Origin: Bacteroidota bacterium
Lineage (GTDB): Bacteria > Bacteroidota > Bacteroidia > Bacteroidales > UBA4417
DNA: 35,068 nucleotides
Reading direction: 5' to 3'
NCBI GenBank assembly: GCA_022711175.1
Contig: JAKLFM010000033.1
Coordinates: forward strand, 1 to 35,068
Below are positions 21,341 to 30,616 of the stretch, piece by piece. The notes beneath the pieces were generated by a model that was not told the origin of the DNA, did no database searches, and saw only the letters and a program-made list of their open reading frames with translations. The first letter of the stretch is position 1. The number at the start of each line of letters is the position of its first letter. A program made the position numbers and the translations under genes.

Positions 21341-22852
21341 CTATTGAAGAATAATTTTTTGAATACCGGTATAATCTGCCAGCTGCCACTTCAGCATGTA
21401 AATTCCACGGGCCAATCCCGAAATATTAATATCAGCACCGGGTTGTGACATTGTACTCATTACTGCGTTGCCCCAGCAATCGATGATTGTAAGGTAGCAA
21501 GAACCTGGCTTTTCAGAATAAAGCCTGATCTTATCTGTGGCAGGATTTGGATAAACAAAAAAGCTGAGATGGCCATTTTCAGGATTAGAAGAAGGGTGCA
21601 ATTGCTCCTTTACTGTTTCGTAACGTTTTTCGAGAAAGGGCTTGATACCATAGGGACTATGATCATCAACTGCCTTTGAAAAGCCATCGTAGAAATCGTC
21701 AACAGTATAGCCGTAGTCCAGTGTGCGGTATGTATCCTCAAGAGCGGCATCTTCAATCAGGTTTTGAAGCGTATCGATATGTGGGAAAATTGAGTCGGGA
21801 TACGTGTAGTTGTTTACGATAGTATCGAGACACATCCTGAACATCTCATCGAACGCCGGCACTTGTAATAACTTGGTAATGAGCGGCCTGGCTTCGGTAT
21901 CGTTATACCAGCTTTTGCAATTACGCGTTGCCCATTCAATTCCAAACCAATCAATACCGAAAGTATTGTCAGTATCGAACGTTACGAAAGAGAAATAGCC
22001 TGACTGGCCCCTGTCATAAAGGAAGTAATTGTTTTTGAGGTAAGCGTAGTCGTCCCAGTTGCCGGTGGCTATATCAATAGCATATGCTTTGAGTACGCCT
22101 GCCACATCAATCTTTTCCTTTATCATTCGGGCGAAGGATGTATCCGCTTCCTGGTCGAGCAGGGTGATGAGTGCCACAAGATCGGAATAATCGTCGGCCG
22201 ATTCGTTGGTTTTCAGGTCATAAGCCCTGTCGCCGGTCTCATAATTGTTGTAAATATCCTTATACGTTTGTTGGTCGGGACCGAAATAAACCAGGCTGGC
22301 AGGATAGGTACATTTATACAAGTTACCATCGTTCTCGTGATAAACCCGGTTCAACCAATCTTTGTCGTACTCTTCGAGATTTGTATAAAGCCCACGGTAC
22401 GAACCATTTATATATACACGTACGAATGAAGTCCTACGTGGTGGCATTCCGGCTTTGTTCCAGATGTCATAAAAGAGCTTCTCACGAATCATAGTCGGAT
22501 CGTTATGCTGGCCGTTGAGGTTCAGTTTCTTAACACCCATGTAACGTCTCCCCTGCGCAAATTCGTTGAAACTTATCTTGAAGGATTTTTTCTGCGATAG
22601 TCTCGAAGTGTTCCCCCTGAGCCTGAACCCTGCATCGTAAACTGTGTCGGCGCCACTTTCGTAATCATATACAAAAACAGCTTTATAATAATGATTGGAA
22701 AAAACATCCTGCATGATCGCTTCGAGCGAATCAGGATGAATGATAATGTGAATTGAATTTACTTTTGACTGGTCGAAAAGGGTATCCTGCGCCCTGAGAA
22801 CCGGGCAGAAAAGCAACAGCATTAAAAATACGTACAAACGCAGAGGCTTCAT
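21341..22852 (-). CDS. Secreted CotH-family protein kinase-like protein with T9SS sorting domain
   Basis: About 503 residues from the ATG at 22852, which opens a signal peptide (MKPLRLYVFLMLLLFCPVLR, then AQD). The CotH domain follows, with FRLRGNTSRLSQKKSFKISF, KLNLNGQHNDPTMIREKL, YRGLYTNLEEYDKDWL, GNWDDYAYLKNNYFLYD and FDTDNTFG, the last two resembling the catalytic Asn and Asp motifs of CotH kinases. Spore-coat CotH phosphorylates Ser/Thr residues of coat proteins with ATP. The last ~75 residues are a type A T9SS sorting domain (FFVYPNPATDKIRLYS to GIYMLKWQLADYTGIQKIIL), so the protein should be exported by the type IX system and attached to or released from the cell surface. Substrates are unknown. 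It is downstream of phoR on the same strand (57 bp), but no functional link is evident. Confidence 0.9.
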   Translation of the reverse strand: MKPLRLYVFLMLLLFCPVLRAQDTLFDQSKVNSIHIIIHPDSLEAIMQDVFSNHYYKAVFVYDYESGADTVYDAGFRLRGNTSRLSQKKSFKISFNEFAQGRRYMGVKKLNLNGQHNDPTMIREKLFYDIWNKAGMPPRRTSFVRVYINGSYRGLYTNLEEYDKDWLNRVYHENDGNLYKCTYPASLVYFGPDQQTYKDIYNNYETGDRAYDLKTNESADDYSDLVALITLLDQEADTSFARMIKEKIDVAGVLKAYAIDIATGNWDDYAYLKNNYFLYDRGQSGYFSFVTFDTDNTFGIDWFGIEWATRNCKSWYNDTEARPLITKLLQVPAFDEMFRMCLDTIVNNYTYPDSIFPHIDTLQNLIEDAALEDTYRTLDYGYTVDDFYDGFSKAVDDHSPYGIKPFLEKRYETVKEQLHPSSNPENGHLSFFVYPNPATDKIRLYSEKPGSCYLTIIDCWGNAVMSTMSQPGADINISGLARGIYMLKWQLADYTGIQKIILQ

Positions 22853-22909
22853 ACCTGAGATTTCCGGCAAAGGTATGTTTTAATGCGGAACAGCGGATTT
22901 ACTAAATCC

Positions 22910-23962
22910 TTAGTTAGCCTGCTTTAATGTAAAGGAGAACGTGGAACCAACACCCGGGGCGCTGCGAACATTCACTGTTTGCCCATGGGCTTCAATGATG
23001 TGTTTCACAATAGCCAGGCCCAGCCCTGAACCGCCACCGCTGCGCGACCGGTGCTTATCAACGCGGTAAAACCGCTCAAAAAGATGGGGAATATGATTAT
23101 CTTCGATGCCTATGCCATTGTCAGAAACCTCAATAAGCATATTTTCGTCCATATCGTAAAAGCTCACTTTAGTGCGGCCCTTTTCGCGTCCGTACTTGAT
23201 GGAATTTTCGACCAGGTTAACCAGCACCTGCCTTATTTTATCCTTATCGGCCAGTACAAACCCGGGTAAATAACTTTCGGAGCCGAAGATGAGGCTGATG
23301 TCCCTTGCTCTTGCTTTTGGTTCAAGAAATTCAAACACTTCGCGCGTAAGTGCCAGTATATCAAAACGCATCATTTCCGGCTTCGCTTCTCCCGATTCAA
23401 GTTTGCTTATCACTTCGAGATCGTTTACAATGGTGATCATCCGCTCGGTGTTTTTCTGCACTTTCTGAAGGTAATCGAGATTAACTGCAGGATCATCAAG
23501 ACCGCCGTCGATGAGGGTCATTGTGAAGCCCTGTATATTGAACAAGGGCGTTTTGAGTTCATGCGAAACATTGGCCAGGAATTCCCTGCGATAGATTTCC
23601 TGTTGCCTCAGATCGTCAATCTCCTGCTTACGTGCGGTGGCCCAATTTGTAACATCATCATTCACTGTATCAAGCACATTGCCTCTTGTGATCTCAAAAG
23701 GGTCTCGTTTTTCTTCCTTCGGGAGTTTGAGATTGTGAATGGTTTTATAGATGAGTTTAATTTTCTCATAAATAAAGGTCTGCAGGAAATATTTGATAAG
23801 AAAATATTGAATAATGAAAAGTATAATAGCAGGAATGGCAAGTGCAAGCCATGAAAAACTGTGGTTGCCGGCCAGCGCCGATATCCAAAATGCAAGGGTA
23901 GCAATTACCGTGAGTGCCGATGCTAATATGAGCGCAAGAAATTTGGGATTTGATGTTTTCAT
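22910..23962 (-). CDS. phoR: Phosphate-regulon sensor histidine kinase PhoR
   Basis: 350 residues. Two membrane helices (about 8-30 and 37-60) are separated by a very short periplasmic loop, then comes a short linker without a PAS domain. The HisKA domain has the phosphoacceptor His134 in FLANVSHELKTPLFNIQG. The ATPase domain has the N-box LVENSIKYG, the G1 box DNGIGIE and the G2 box GGGSGLGLAIVKHI. Lack of a sizeable extracytoplasmic domain agrees with PhoR-type kinases that sense phosphate through PstSCAB and PhoU rather than directly. The ATG overlaps the phoB stop by four bases (ATGA), indicating translational coupling. It is the last gene of the phosphate locus. Confidence 0.93.
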   Translation of the reverse strand: MKTSNPKFLALILASALTVIATLAFWISALAGNHSFSWLALAIPAIILFIIQYFLIKYFLQTFIYEKIKLIYKTIHNLKLPKEEKRDPFEITRGNVLDTVNDDVTNWATARKQEIDDLRQQEIYRREFLANVSHELKTPLFNIQGFTMTLIDGGLDDPAVNLDYLQKVQKNTERMITIVNDLEVISKLESGEAKPEMMRFDILALTREVFEFLEPKARARDISLIFGSESYLPGFVLADKDKIRQVLVNLVENSIKYGREKGRTKVSFYDMDENMLIEVSDNGIGIEDNHIPHLFERFYRVDKHRSRSGGGSGLGLAIVKHIIEAHGQTVNVRSAPGVGSTFSFTLKQAN

Positions 23963-24675: not shown

Positions 24676-25350
24676 CTATTTATGCTTGTTGAGTTTGTTA
24701 TGCTTGATAACAATAGCCTCGAAGAGGAAAATCAGCTCTTCGCCAATGTTGAGAACATGATCGCCGGCACGTTCCAACTTTCTGATCACCGTGAAAGTGT
24801 CGAGATGATCCATAACTTTATCATTATTGCGGGTGATAAGCCCGGCGATAGCTTCACCTGAGCTGCTGTTGAACTTATCGAGCTTCTTGTCGAGCTCAAA
24901 GAGGTTCATTACCAGCCTTTTATCTTCGTTCTCAAACGCAGAGAGTGCATCCTGCAGCATGGACTGTACGAGGAAATACATTTCGGCAAGGTGTGTTGTG
25001 CTTAATACTTCTTCACTGAGTGGTTCAGTGTTTTTCTCGGCAATTTTTGCAATGGTATTGGCATAATCGCCAATGCGTTCGAGGTTGTAGTTAATCTTAA
25101 GCACCGAAATCACAAACCGCATATCAATGGCCAAAGGGTTCTTCAGCATCAGAATATTCTCGCTGTCCATGTCAATTTTCAGCTCAAAAGCATCCACTCT
25201 TTTTTCGTTGAGCCTGACTTCTTTTGCCATCGCGTGGTTCGATTCGAGAATGGCAATGCGCGATTTCTCCATCTGGCCAATGACCAGCGTCCACATCTGC
25301 ACGAGGTCGTCTTTCAGTTGATTTATTGCTCTTTCAAGTATTTCGCTCAT
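24676..25350 (-). CDS. phoU: Phosphate signalling complex protein PhoU
   Basis: 224 residues, the normal length for the family, all helical. Two PhoU three-helix repeats are visible, each with the E/DxxxD metal-cluster motif: MRFVISVLKINYNLERIGDYA in the first and VIRKLERAGDHVLNIGEELIF in the second. PhoU is a cytoplasmic negative regulator that couples PstSCAB transport state to PhoR and restrains phosphate uptake. It lies between pstB (34 bp) and phoB (24 bp), the usual order. Confidence 0.95.
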   Translation of the reverse strand: MSEILERAINQLKDDLVQMWTLVIGQMEKSRIAILESNHAMAKEVRLNEKRVDAFELKIDMDSENILMLKNPLAIDMRFVISVLKINYNLERIGDYANTIAKIAEKNTEPLSEEVLSTTHLAEMYFLVQSMLQDALSAFENEDKRLVMNLFELDKKLDKFNSSSGEAIAGLITRNNDKVMDHLDTFTVIRKLERAGDHVLNIGEELIFLFEAIVIKHNKLNKHK

Positions 25351-25384: not shown

Positions 25385-26137
25385 TCAACCGAAACGTCCG
25401 GTTATGTAACTTTGGGTACGTTCGTCGGCTGGATTGAGGAACATTTTTTGTGTTTTATCGTGTTCAATGAGTGAACCGAGGTAAAAGAATCCCGTGTAGT
25501 CACTGATGCGCCCCGCTTGTTGAAGGTTGTGGGTCACGATGATGATGGTATATTGCTGCTTCAGTTCAAAAATCAGGTCCTCAACCTTGGAGGTTGAGAT
25601 CGGGTCGAGCGCCGAGGCCGGCTCATCCATCAAAAGCAGGTGAGGTTCAACGGCCAGTGCCCTTGCAATACACAGGCGCTGCTGCTGACCTCCAGATAAT
25701 GCCATGGCCGATTTCCGGAGATTGTCTTTCACCTCTTCCCACAAGGCTGCTTTTTTCAGCGAGTTCTCAACAACTTCATCGAGAACCGATTTTTTGTTCG
25801 TCCCGTTCACTCTGAGGCCGTAAGCAACATTTTCGTAGATAGATTTCGGAAAAGGATTGGGTTTCTGGAAAACCATTCCGATGCGTTTTCTGATCTCATC
25901 AACCTGCACATCCCTGGCGTAGATATCTTTGCCATCAACAGTAACCGATCCTTCGAGTTTAGTGTTGCCAATAAGTTCGTTCATGCGGTTAAATAGCCTG
26001 AGGAAAGTGGATTTCCCGCATCCCGAAGGGCCGATTAGCGCGGTAACGGTGCTTGGTTCAAATGTCATGCTGATATTTTTCAGGGCATGAAAATCGCCGT
26101 AGTAAAAATTTACGTTTTTGGCTTCTGCCTGTATCAT
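25385..26137 (-). CDS. pstB: Phosphate ABC transporter ATP-binding protein PstB
   Basis: 250 residues with a full ABC ATPase set: Walker [11 protein letters not shown]-loop [20 protein letters not shown] (the PNPFP sequence is typical of PstB), signature [16 protein letters not shown], Walker [14 protein letters not shown] and the H-loop IIVTHN. It powers phosphate import through PstC/PstA. It lies 73 bp downstream of pstA, a wider gap than others in the locus, occupied by a GTTTRAA heptad repeat that ends just before the pstB start. No promoter match was seen in that gap, so it is probably read from the upstream promoters. Confidence 0.97.
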
Positions 26138-26210: not shown

Positions 26211-27065
26211 TTACATTTTTACCCGCTTGCTTAATGTTTTGCGAAGCAAATTTGCCAGGAGGTTTACCAACAGTACTAAAACGATGAGTACGAAAGCTGT
26301 ACCATATGCCATCGGGCGCGATTCCTCCATATTGGTGCCGCTAGTTGCCAGCACATATAAATGGTATGGGAGCGCCATCACCTGATCGTACATGCTTTGT
26401 GGCAGGTTTGGCAGGAAATAGGCTGCCACGGTAAAAAGAATAGGCGCCGTTTCGCCCGAAACCCTGCCGATGGAGAGGATGAGGCCTGTGATGATATTGG
26501 GGAACGCAACTGGGAGAACAACACGGCGAATGGTTTGCAATTTGGTAGCGCCCAGCGCGAGGCTGCCGGTTCGCAGGGAATCGTCAACTGATTTGAGTGC
26601 TTCTTCAGTGGTGCGGATAATCACCGGAAGGCTCAGCAATCCAAGCGTCATAGATCCGGCAATGATCGAATCGCCGAAACCTAAGTAGTTGACAAACAAT
26701 GCCATTCCGAAAAGACCAAAAACAATCGAAGGCACGCCTGCCAGGTTATTGGTCATAAAGTTGATAAACCGCCTTAAACGATTTTGCCCCAGGTATTCAT
26801 TCATGTATATTCCCGACAACACACCAACCGGAAATGCAAAGATCATGCTTCCCACAATCAGGCATCCCGTACCGACTATTGCAGGCAGAATGCCCCCTTT
26901 GGTCATTCCTTCTTCGGGCTTACCCGTAATAAATTCCCAACTAATTACTGAGGCGCCTCTCACAATAATGAATCCCAGAATCACAAACAGAATTGCAACC
27001 ACCACCAGGCTGATCAAGGTAAACGTGGAAAAAGCGATACGCTGGCTGAGTTGTTTCCTGGTCAT
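26211..27065 (-). CDS. pstA: Phosphate ABC transporter permease PstA
   Basis: 284 residues with about six membrane helices, starting with TFTLISLVVVAILFVILGFI. It shows the typical PstA features GGILPAIVGTGCLIVGSMIF, NNLAGVPSIVFGLFGMALFV and the EAA-type cytoplasmic loop SLALGATKLQTIRRVVLPVA, which contacts PstB. With PstC it forms the phosphate channel in the inner membrane. It follows pstC by 35 bp. No unusual insertion is present, unlike in PstC. Confidence 0.96.
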   Translation of the reverse strand: MTRKQLSQRIAFSTFTLISLVVVAILFVILGFIIVRGASVISWEFITGKPEEGMTKGGILPAIVGTGCLIVGSMIFAFPVGVLSGIYMNEYLGQNRLRRFINFMTNNLAGVPSIVFGLFGMALFVNYLGFGDSIIAGSMTLGLLSLPVIIRTTEEALKSVDDSLRTGSLALGATKLQTIRRVVLPVAFPNIITGLILSIGRVSGETAPILFTVAAYFLPNLPQSMYDQVMALPYHLYVLATSGTNMEESRPMAYGTAFVLIVLVLLVNLLANLLRKTLSKRVKM

Positions 27066-27100: not shown

Positions 27101-28297
27101 CTATTTCTTCTCCCTGTTGCGGATGTATGCGACCGTGAGATTAATGATGATTGTGAAGAGGAAAAGGACAATGCCCAGCGCAAAAAGCGCTTTGAAATGC
27201 AATCCTCCGTAAGGTGCTTCACCAAGTTCGGCGGCAATGGTGGCGGGCAAAGTACGGGCAGGCACCAGGAATGAATGCGGCACATTGGAAGCATTGCCGG
27301 TAACCATAAGCACCGCCATGGTTTCGCCAATAGCCCGTCCGATACCAAGTATTACCGCAGCCGAAATCCCTGACTTGGCATATGGAATGGTAACTTTCCG
27401 GAGTGTTTGCCAGCGGGTAGCACCCAGCGCAAGACTTGCTTCCTTTAGCGAGAGCGGTGTTGTACGCAACGCATCTTCAGCAATCGTAACGATGGTTGGC
27501 AGTGCCATTATGCCAAGCACAATGCTGCCTGCCAGAACGGTTTCACCAACATCGAGTTTAAACAGTCCCTGTATGAGCGGCACAATCACAATGAGTCCAA
27601 AAAAGCCGTAAACAACCGAAGGTATTCCGGCAAGAAGTTCAACAAGTGGCTTTACAAGGTTACGCAAACGGATATCAGCCACTTCGGCAAGGAATAATGC
27701 TGTTGCCAGACCAAGCGGCAGAGCGATCAGCAGTGCACCAAAGGTTACGAGAAAAGTACCGATGATCATCGGCCAGATGCCAAAACTTGGGATGGGCTCG
27801 CTTGTAGGATACCATTGTTTCCCGAAAAGGAAATCGCCAACCGAAATATTCTTTACATGTATGGTGTGTCCATTGAATTTTTTTGGCAGGTATTTTTCGC
27901 TAACATGCATCAGTGCGCCAGGATTAGCCTCTATAAACTCATTCAGCTTCTGAGGAAGGTTCTCGAGCGAGGCACCAAGCTCTTCTTCCGAAAAATAATT
28001 TGTTATATCATTGATTGTGAAGAGAATAATACTATCCTTAACTCCTCCCACCTTCGACCAGTTTGTAATATCCTGGTTAAAAATGGCCTTCAGTTGGTCG
28101 GAACTTAAATCCTGCACAGGATTTTGTTTGCTTACCGCGATAATGAAGTTGTGTTCGAGAGGTGACCTGTTGAATAGCCCTAACCCTTCCCTAAAAAGAA
28201 ACAAAATAATGAGAATAACAGTCAGGCTTGTTATTGTTGAACTTGACAACAATATGCCTTCAATGAATTTTTCAAGTATTCTGCGAAATCGCTTCAT
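27101..28297 (-). CDS. pstC: Phosphate ABC transporter permease PstC with a PstS-like periplasmic insertion
   Basis: 398 residues, about 80-100 longer than a standard PstC. TM1 is at about 20-38. The canonical permease part resumes near 155 (FLFGKQWYPTSEPIPSFGIW, PMIIGTFLVTFGALLIALPLGL) and includes the EAA loop EASLALGATRWQTLRKVTIP. Residues about 45-150 form an extra periplasmic segment. Its part 60-85 (LSSDQLKAIFNQDITNWSKV) closely parallels residues 117-137 of the neighbouring PstS (LTREQLEGIFTGKIKNWKEV), so it looks like a piece of a phosphate-binding protein fold. The phosphate ligand motif of PstS (SRETSSGTYE) is not preserved. The gene lies 83 bp after pstS, with a stem-loop between. 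It may tune docking of PstS, which is inference. Confidence 0.93.
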   Translation of the reverse strand: MKRFRRILEKFIEGILLSSSTITSLTVILIILFLFREGLGLFNRSPLEHNFIIAVSKQNPVQDLSSDQLKAIFNQDITNWSKVGGVKDSIILFTINDITNYFSEEELGASLENLPQKLNEFIEANPGALMHVSEKYLPKKFNGHTIHVKNISVGDFLFGKQWYPTSEPIPSFGIWPMIIGTFLVTFGALLIALPLGLATALFLAEVADIRLRNLVKPLVELLAGIPSVVYGFFGLIVIVPLIQGLFKLDVGETVLAGSIVLGIMALPTIVTIAEDALRTTPLSLKEASLALGATRWQTLRKVTIPYAKSGISAAVILGIGRAIGETMAVLMVTGNASNVPHSFLVPARTLPATIAAELGEAPYGGLHFKALFALGIVLFLFTIIINLTVAYIRNREKK

Positions 28298-28380: not shown

Positions 28381-29202
28381 TTACTGAACCGGGACATACC
28401 CCTCTTTTAAAACTATCTGCTGACCTTCGGGCGATAATACAAATGTAAGAAATGGGCTGACTTTCTTTTCGTTTGTTTTTAGAAAATAGTAGTATAAAGG
28501 GCGGGTGATCGGGTACTTTTTGCTTTTGGCGGTTTCGACCGAGGGAGCGGTGAATGTTTTGCCCTTATCGAAAGATACATCCAGCGCTCTTACACTTTTT
28601 TCGAGATAGGCAAGTCCCACATATCCTATGGCGCCTTTGGTCTGGCTTACACTTTGTACGATTGCTCCGGTAGCAGGCATCAGCAGTGCCGAAGGAGCAA
28701 AGTTTTTCTTGCTTAGCACATGCTCTTTAAAGAATTCGTAAGTACCAGAGCTTGTTTCGCGGGAGTAAACCACAATTTTAAGGTCTTCGCCGCCGACTTC
28801 TTTCCAGTTTTTAATCTTGCCGGTAAAAATGCCTTCGAGTTGCTCACGGGTTAGCTTAGAAATTTTGTTTGCAGGATTTACAATCACCGCCAACGCATCA
28901 TAGGCAATGATTTTTTCGGTAAATGCTTTGCCGGCATCATTCAACTTCATTTTTTCATCGAGTTTGAGGCTGCGTGACGACTGTGCTATATCGGTGGTGC
29001 CGCTGAGCAGTGCCGAAACACCTACTCCCGATCCGCCGCCTGTGACCATAATGGACGACCCGGCATTCTTTTTCATATAGACTTCAGCTTCTTTTTGGGT
29101 CAACGGAAGCACCGTATCGCTGCCCTTAATTTTAAAATTTACTTTTTGTGCAAACACTGATGCCGAAATTGCTACCAGTGCCATCAATAACATCTTTTTC
29201 AT
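28381..29202 (-). CDS. pstS: Periplasmic phosphate-binding protein PstS
   Basis: 273 residues. A signal peptide (MKKMLLMALVAISASVFAQ) has no lipobox, so the mature protein is soluble in the periplasm. The PBP-like fold shows the phosphate ligands of the family: IKGSDTVLPL near the N-terminus, GGGSGVGVSALLSGTTDIAQSSR and SRETSSGTYEFFKE. The hinge-region motif LTREQLEGIFTGKIKNWKEV is also typical. It delivers phosphate to PstCA. It has its own promoter region: three 11-bp direct repeats and a TACTTTG element between the porin stop and the ATG, so it can be induced separately from the porin. Confidence 0.95.
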   Translation of the reverse strand: MKKMLLMALVAISASVFAQKVNFKIKGSDTVLPLTQKEAEVYMKKNAGSSIMVTGGGSGVGVSALLSGTTDIAQSSRSLKLDEKMKLNDAGKAFTEKIIAYDALAVIVNPANKISKLTREQLEGIFTGKIKNWKEVGGEDLKIVVYSRETSSGTYEFFKEHVLSKKNFAPSALLMPATGAIVQSVSQTKGAIGYVGLAYLEKSVRALDVSFDKGKTFTAPSVETAKSKKYPITRPLYYYFLKTNEKKVSPFLTFVLSPEGQQIVLKEGYVPVQ

Positions 29203-29281: not shown

Positions 29282-30616
29282 TTAGAATTTGTACTGTATT
29301 CTGAATGTGAACACATTGTCTTTCAAATCTTTAGTGAAATTATTAGTAGAGTTGACGCCTGTGATGCCTGTAGTTTCGTTCTTAACAATATCGTAATACG
29401 CGGTAAATTTTATGTGGGTATTAAACCTGTAATTCCAACCCAATCCGATTGTATTGTATTTGATGTCGGCTGCAGATAATCCGGTGCTCTTACCTTCTGA
29501 GTTCTTGCTTTTTATTTCATTGCCATTAACATCGGTATTTGGATCATACCAATCGTATTTGGCAACAAACTGATGTTTGGTCTGGCCGATATTCTGGATA
29601 AAGTAAATATATCCGCCGCTGACTTCCCTCAAATATGTATCATAATCGGGAGCTGTGCCTGTCGCAATGCTAACATTGCTGCTCTTGCTGCCGGGTTGTT
29701 TACCAGTTATATATTCGGCCCTGAGGGTGCTGAGGCCAATAGCTGAAAAGAGGCTGAGCTGAAGATCGGCGCCCATATATTGCCTGCGGGCAAAATCATA
29801 TTTATTGTTTGAAGTTGAATCGACTATGAATCCTAAAGTTGACCCATCAGGCAGCGTGCCTGGTGAATAAACGAATTTTGTACCCTGAAGAGTGCCACCA
29901 TTGTAGTAGGATAAGCCAAGCCCAAACTTAAAGTTCTCTGCTTTGTTCGCTTTACTCATTCCGAGCCTGCCGATAAAATCCTTGTGGCTATCGAACTCAG
30001 CGTTGATACCATTACCTGCGAACAGGCCTGCATCGAGTTTTATAAAATCGAAACGGCTTCCTTTCCTGGGCTGGAGAGTGATTTTGGCGCCAAGATCGCG
30101 CTCGCCCGGAAACAGCGATTGGAAGATACGCGAACGTTCAGGTGTTTCGCGCGTGCTTGAGGAATAGCTGATTTCATAACCAAACGGACGATCGAATACG
30201 CCTGCGGTAAGCGTTGCGAATTCAGCCCAGGGTTCGCGCACGGCGAGGTAAGCATCCTTCACCCCAACGCCTTTTTCAGTAGCGTCCAATTGTACCACAA
30301 AGGTTGACAGTTCATTCTCATAAGTAAATTTCACCCTGCCTCTTCTAATACCAAAGCGGTTATCGGAATATTTTGGAAAATTGCCACCGGCGTATGACGA
30401 AATTCCAATGGTATCGGCTTTTTGCCATTGAGCCTGTATGTATCCTGTAACCTTTAAACGGTTCATTAATCCGATTTCGCTTCTCGAATTTTCAATTTTT
30501 GCATTCAGGGTATCAGCGAGTACTTCAGGATCGAACTCCTGTGCCATAGCTGATCGCAGCGATAATTTCAGTGAAAGGAATGGTAATAAAACCAGCAGTA
30601 GTAAATACTTTTTCAT
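29282..30616 (-). CDS. Phosphate-selective porin of the OprP/OprO family
   Basis: 444 residues. A signal peptide (MKKYLLLLVLLPFLSLKLSL, cleavage near AMAQ-E) is followed by a beta barrel of about 16 strands ending in a C-terminal aromatic (FRIQYKF). Family signatures are KVTGYIQAQWQ, RFGIRRGRVKFTYENELSTF, DATEKGVGVKDAYLA, GVFDRPFGYEISYSSSTRETPERSRI and FPGERDLGAKI. OprP-type porins pass anions, preferring phosphate or polyphosphate, across the outer membrane. The position ahead of pstS and a putative Pho box 57 bp before the start support phosphate uptake under starvation. Key OprP lysines cannot be aligned by eye, so anion selectivity is inferred. Confidence 0.9.
   Translation of the reverse strand: MKKYLLLLVLLPFLSLKLSLRSAMAQEFDPEVLADTLNAKIENSRSEIGLMNRLKVTGYIQAQWQKADTIGISSYAGGNFPKYSDNRFGIRRGRVKFTYENELSTFVVQLDATEKGVGVKDAYLAVREPWAEFATLTAGVFDRPFGYEISYSSSTRETPERSRIFQSLFPGERDLGAKITLQPRKGSRFDFIKLDAGLFAGNGINAEFDSHKDFIGRLGMSKANKAENFKFGLGLSYYNGGTLQGTKFVYSPGTLPDGSTLGFIVDSTSNNKYDFARRQYMGADLQLSLFSAIGLSTLRAEYITGKQPGSKSSNVSIATGTAPDYDTYLREVSGGYIYFIQNIGQTKHQFVAKYDWYDPNTDVNGNEIKSKNSEGKSTGLSAADIKYNTIGLGWNYRFNTHIKFTAYYDIVKNETTGITGVNSTNNFTKDLKDNVFTFRIQYKF

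Follow-up and report, generated by a model that had tools for sequence, protein, structure and literature searches.

A domain homologous to PstS lobe 2 in the TM1-TM2 loop of the phosphate permease PstC of Bacteroidia

Some proteobacterial PstC and PstA proteins, the permease subunits of the phosphate importer, have extra N-terminal or periplasmic regions (DUF3708, PF12501; DUF3333, PF11812), and in the maltose importer the P2 domain of MalF occupies the loop after the first core transmembrane helix (TM). According to excerpts of PMC3150292, MalF P2 touches its binding protein, and loops of MalF and MalG touch MalE. In importers of the GlnPQ and OpuA type, a domain derived from a binding protein is covalently part of the permease (excerpts of PMC8025302 and PMC11065425). 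Here we describe a PstC encoded on a stretch of 35,068 nucleotides from a Bacteroidota bacterium (contig JAKLFM010000033.1 of assembly GCA_022711175.1; hereafter the window), which carries, in the loop that joins TM1 and TM2 in its permease core, a domain with sequence homology to lobe 2 of PstS, the phosphate-binding protein.

Unlike the window PstC, E. coli PstC (319 residues; cryo-EM structures of PstSCAB, PDB 9k3s, 9k3x and 9k3y) lacks a periplasmic lobe in the TM1-TM2 loop. The maltose importer likewise has an extra periplasmic domain, which follows the first core TM in one of its permease subunits; no MalF chain was among the Foldseek/VIA matches listed for the insert, an absence that excludes nothing. 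In GlnPQ and OpuA, whole ligand-binding substrate-binding domains (SBDs) capture the substrate, whereas PstC contains no complete SBD of this type: it has just one lobe, from which the binding loop is gone, and PstS is a separate protein. In the Pfam search the window PstC matched neither PF12501 nor PF11812 at E ≤ 1, and PF12501 was found nowhere in the whole genome.

A sequence-only reading of the window had pointed to PstS-like sequence in PstC at 27840-28170, which corresponds to PstC residues 44-152, and had suggested a profile-profile comparison, a structure prediction and a phylogenetic survey. The similarity proves to be far above chance. PF12849 (PBP_like_2) matched the whole PstC with 32.9 bits and the insert alone with 36.1 bits (gathering cut-off 27), and the PstS model TIGR02136 matched the insert at E 3.2e-7 (29.8 bits, far under the family cut-off of 206.6). 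With phmmer, PstC residues 51-155 aligned to residues 105-208 of the Vibrio cholerae phosphate receptor chain in PDB 1twy (E 3.4e-5). Profile-profile alignment of 16 inserts with 20 PstS sequences by hhalign was clearly significant (probability 99.1, E 7.6e-19), pairing insert positions 3-95 with PstS 99-201.

The insert is an entire lobe rather than a fragment, as it corresponds to lobe 2, which is the uninterrupted central portion of PstS. Pfam gave no lobe-1 match in PstC, and the profile match spans PstS 99-201 alone. Structure prediction, run on single chains, yielded the fold of an isolated lobe of a periplasmic binding protein (PBP), a predicted fold that the insert shares with lobe 2 of PstS and other PBP_like_2 proteins (PF12849; for example 1twy and 4exl). 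Neither of the two outcomes named beforehand as refuting the sequence-only reading, a profile match short of significance or a predicted structure unlike a PBP lobe, occurred. The insert differs from these proteins in being one lobe only, placed within a permease, and it has neither the two lobes around a cleft nor the S-G-T phosphate loop of a functional PstS. In PBPs, lobe 2 is formed by one unbroken stretch of sequence whose ends come together at the hinge, so that a single insertion would suffice to place a folded stand-alone domain in a loop.

The host protein is a PstC by its match to TIGR02138 (298.4 bits; curated cut-off 196.45), it was tested for the permease core fold, which is present, and it lies in one pst operon with PstS, PstA, PstB and PhoU. 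Relatives' stretches (n = 80) encode PstA in 77 and PstS in 73 cases. PstA of the window has no insert of this kind, the Pfam search giving the permease domain alone. Since the N-terminus ahead of TM1 is rich in K and R by charge count, we infer that the insert-bearing loop after TM1 is periplasmic. An assembly or annotation artefact, such as a chimeric contig or a read-through, is already refuted and has practically no chance of being the explanation: the protein is encoded by a single open frame in the window, and many independent genomes share the architecture, including those of Phocaeicola vulgatus ATCC 8482 and Flavobacterium species.

The former ligand site was examined in an alignment of 131 lobes of PstS, 113 of them distinct, and 117 inserts, of which 99 are distinct. 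The tryptophan at PstS position 133, the counterpart of that in the PstC signature IFNQDITNW, is kept in 117/117 inserts and 131/131 PstS. The PstS phosphate loop has S152 and G153 in 131/131 sequences and T154 in 127/131, with serine in the other 4. At G153 and T154, 117/117 inserts have gaps as aligned, a count that hinges on where the aligner places a three-residue gap; the loss of the SRETSSGTYE motif, remarked on from the window sequence, is thereby seen across the inserts. The string SG[TS] occurs in 1/117 inserts (L140), close to the C-terminal end. In place of the loop there is a block with D97 (84%), E104 (82%), E105 (86%), L107 (80%) and G108 (100%; 87 distinct main-clade sequences).

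This replacement motif at the old site, together with an Arg at position 94 in 57/117 inserts, could be taken as a sign that the lobe still binds an anion, be it phosphate or not, by a new mode and so serves as a low-affinity waypoint. We regard this as quite improbable, because every insert has gaps at the G and T of the loop, a second lobe to close on the ligand is missing, and position 94 is Thr in 38/117 inserts, that of the window included. Loss of the S-G-T loop fits a non-binding lobe.

Loop length was taken as the number of residues that separate reference residues 43 and 156, over an alignment of 149 PstC rows. The lengths are bimodal, with 106-124 residues in 117 insert-bearing rows and 7-8 in 26 insert-free rows, in good agreement with an early estimate of about 100 extra residues; of the remaining 6, 5 have an unrelated loop and 1 is truncated. 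In a core tree of 105 of the 149 rows, with the insert columns excluded, one state change accounts for the insert, and the five rows with an unrelated loop (L032, L047, L056, L059, L061) form one separate clade with support 100. In a lobe tree of 89 rows, a 100/100 branch, seen in 200/200 bootstrap trees, parts the inserts from PstS. Inserts were not found nested within any group among the sampled PstS, none of which thus stands out as the donor of the lobe. The trees fit a capture of a PstS lobe, probably a single event in an ancestor shared by many Bacteroidia. The sequence-only description of a captured, non-binding piece of a binding protein is thus upheld as to capture, which fits the trees, and as to non-binding, given the lost loop; "piece" has to be replaced by a whole lobe.

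The PstC proteins of L047, L056 and L061 have a low-complexity extra loop at the insert's place, with PESYDPN/PEIYNP-like repeats, and those of L032 and L059 have a shorter one; by eye, the loops of all five are unrelated to the PBP lobe. L047 and L056 (query 9-395, 38-39%) had been candidates for insert-bearing rows and were rejected when their loop was judged by eye to be low-complexity like that of L061. As this separate Bacteroidota clade has its own unrelated loop, the TM1-TM2 loop seems to take insertions repeatedly. In L145-L151 (family f121, with genomes of about 2 Mb) the inserts have diverged strongly, are about 106 residues long and lack an EEELG-type motif; they lie on a long branch in both trees. 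A 555-aa protein (P0058), an insert-bearing PstC with an internal permease duplication, was set aside as probably an assembly artefact.

At 75 loci with PstS, identity to the window has a median of 0.42 in the insert, as against 0.68 in the PstC core and 0.75 in lobe 2 of PstS. The ratio of nonsynonymous to synonymous substitution rates (dN/dS) has a median of 0.072 in the insert, with a maximum of 0.33, and of 0.028 in the core. It was taken from 122 of 340 pairs, those with a finite dS in both parts and an insert dS > 0.1; these pairs share ancestry, and some genomes occur in them twice. The ratios indicate purifying selection on the insert. If the lobe were the relic of a worn-down PstS-PstC fusion, functionless today, its faster evolution relative to the core would be understandable, but a dN/dS of about 0.07, near-constant length, conserved positions within the insert and one state change over 105 core-tree rows make a relic highly improbable.

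PstC is present in 94/296 sampled Bacteroidia genomes, and by our own count 46 of these 94 carry the insert. The 46 comprise 36 strong profile matches (E ≤ 7.1e-20), 6 genomes whose PstC frame matches weakly (E 7.9e-15 to 1.2e-5) and 4 close relatives of those six, recognized by frame length and position; in the 10 weakly matched or kin genomes, the sequences were read and the loop has 106-123 residues. In a sample of the phylum (E ≤ 1e-12), 46/392 genomes matched. Seven matches were strong (E ≤ 4.8e-40), all in one class with the window genome, itself included, and the 39 others (E 4.9e-16 to 9.7e-13; frames of 268-449 aa) were taken as PstS by size, apart from the two longest, which were read. 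A pattern scan of genome contigs gave 203 confirmed places, some of which may be PstS; titles of the best 80 of the 203 name Bacteroidales, Phocaeicola, Bacteroides, Parabacteroides, Flavobacterium, Rufibacter and Chitinophagaceae, with a few labelled "uncultured bacterium". The insert is thus widespread in Bacteroidia and no oddity of this genome.

Several candidate matches were rejected. Of the two longest phylum-sample frames, that of G184 (356 aa) is a PstS, and around the match of G045 (L159) the open frame encodes a degenerate binding-protein-like lipoprotein without a permease. This free-standing PstS-like lipoprotein keeps an ITNWKELGG signature, by eye lacks the SGT loop at the PstS site, and is apparently a further non-binding PstS relative. 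A Monoglobus plasmid match (H4, query 53-398) was dismissed as an insert beyond Bacteroidota: the tblastn piece spans the adjacent substrate-binding gene into pstC, and the annotated pstC has 855 bases (about 284 aa) and is insert-free. Three other plasmid records (query cover at least 80%) are from Bacteroidales; pstC has the insert-sized lengths of 1197 and 1188 bases in two, and the third carries no annotation. Restriction to Bacteroidota is unproved, as divergent inserts would be missed at E ≤ 1e-12, the pattern scan was viewed for the best 80 of its 203 places, and coverage outside the phylum consisted of the plasmid collection and the pattern scan.

As to function, we favour a periplasmic docking or retention arm for PstS over a lid, a signalling element, residual ligand binding or a relic, and give this proposal about an even chance of being correct. 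The insert would hang from the TM1-TM2 loop, the location of the PBP-contacting loops MalF P2 and MalG P1, anchored through its old hinge strands, and would hold or orient PstS above the PstC/PstA entrance. Phosphate-loaded PstS would thereby be kept local, and its closed-to-open changes could couple to the gate. In a bolder variant, a long shot in our view, the PstC lobe would act as a surrogate jaw that pairs with lobe 1 of docked PstS, replacing PstS lobe 2, and so opens the receptor and passes phosphate into the PstC/PstA channel.

Several points weigh against a docking arm derived from a single capture. Contact between insert and PstS is conjectural, the predictions being of single chains. 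The parallel with MalF is one of position only, because MalF P2 has an immunoglobulin-like fold, different from a PBP lobe. In 75/75 comparisons the insert is less conserved than the core, and in 75/75 less than PstS lobe 2, so any interface is loosely constrained. The replacement motif is loose as well: its strict form, D...[YF][YF].EEELG, occurs in 34/117 inserts and a relaxed form in 94/117, and 11 divergent inserts (L142-L151, L153) have neither. Roughly half of the sampled PstC-bearing Bacteroidia are insert-free. With respect to origin, the most divergent insert clade (seven rows) joins the main one in the core tree at a weak Shimodaira-Hasegawa-like approximate likelihood ratio (SH-aLRT) support of 16, and the change count on this tree is blind to gain versus loss.

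That the lobe is anchored directly between TM1 and TM2, by what used to be its hinge ends, and that a new, loosely conserved motif occupies the old ligand site would also suit a gate or lid that covers the PstC/PstA entrance, stops leakage when no PstS is docked and swings off on docking. PstC proteins without the insert manage without a lid, and we think this explanation unlikely, if the strongest competitor of the docking arm. Less probable again is a signalling element, by which the lobe would relay PstS occupancy to PhoU/PhoR via transporter conformation. It would be in keeping with the PhoR-like kinase of the window (22910-23962), by eye without a sizeable extracytoplasmic domain, and with the proposal, in excerpts of PMC5775613, that E. 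coli PhoR reads PstSCAB conformation. The signalling proposed for E. coli, however, runs on an insert-free PstC, and about half of the PstC-bearing Bacteroidia are likewise without the insert.

Features of the locus are collected in Table 1. The PhoR-like kinase is encoded on the minus strand and has 350 aa, while the Bacteroides PhoR model is much longer (583 positions); HisKA and HATPase_c are its sole Pfam domains, and no sizeable sensor was seen by eye. A CotH-kinase-domain protein with a Por secretion-system sorting tail (21341-22870, minus strand) adjoins the pst operon. Immediately upstream of pstS, a 444-aa protein (29282-30616, minus strand) resembles by eye a porin-like outer-membrane barrel; it had zero Pfam and NCBIfam matches at E ≤ 0.001, and judging from its sequence it might be a phosphate-linked porin.

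Table 1. Coordinates of the PstC insert and of the pst genes in the window
Feature	Position	Strand	Details
PstC, phosphate ABC transporter permease, insert-bearing	27101..28297	-	398 aa
TM1 of PstC, about residues 11-43	28169..28267	-	hydropathy and charge count; predicted helix 2-43
Inserted PstS lobe-2-like domain, PstC residues 44-152	27842..28168	-	
IFNQDITNW, PstC residues 72-80	28058..28084	-	fold signature common to PstS
FTINDITNYFSEEELG, PstC residues 93-108	27974..28021	-	former phosphate-loop site, without SGT
PstS, phosphate-binding protein	28381..29202	-	273 aa; TIGR02136 264 bits, PF12849 156 bits
PstS lobe 2, residues 99-201	28600..28908	-	counterpart of the insert; hhalign columns
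S-G-T of PstS, residues 152-154	28741..28749	-	phosphate-loop residues missing in the PstC lobe
PstA, partner permease	26211..27065	-	284 aa; TIGR00974 298.7 bits
PstB	25385-26137	-	rest of pst operon
PhoU	24676-25350	-	rest of pst operon

The architecture is already in databases, as automatic Pfam labels pair PF12849 with PF00528 in 94 of the 120 closest relatives listed; the other 26 carry PF00528 alone, the PF12849 score of inserts in relatives being near the cut-off. Literature searches, to which subscription journals were out of reach, found no published description of a receptor lobe in PstC. Excerpts of PMC3547664 report that B. fragilis pstC is PhoB-regulated, and the word "domain" is absent from the main text of that article. 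A PstC with a domesticated receptor lobe is thus new in the literature searched, and its architecture is already labelled in databases.

The insert makes visible a case in which a lobe of a soluble receptor was domesticated into the membrane subunit that it served, at the loop that houses the unrelated MalF P2. If the docking proposal is true, receptor-assisting periplasmic domains arose at one spot via different routes; if the surrogate jaw is, a binding-protein lobe would have become the transporter part that unloads its own parent protein. The presence of insert-bearing and insert-free PstC within one class offers a natural comparison for communication between binding protein and importer. 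Should the lobe indeed dock PstS, the Pst system of many Bacteroidia, gut commensals and flavobacteria among them, would hand over phosphate in a manner unlike that of E. coli.
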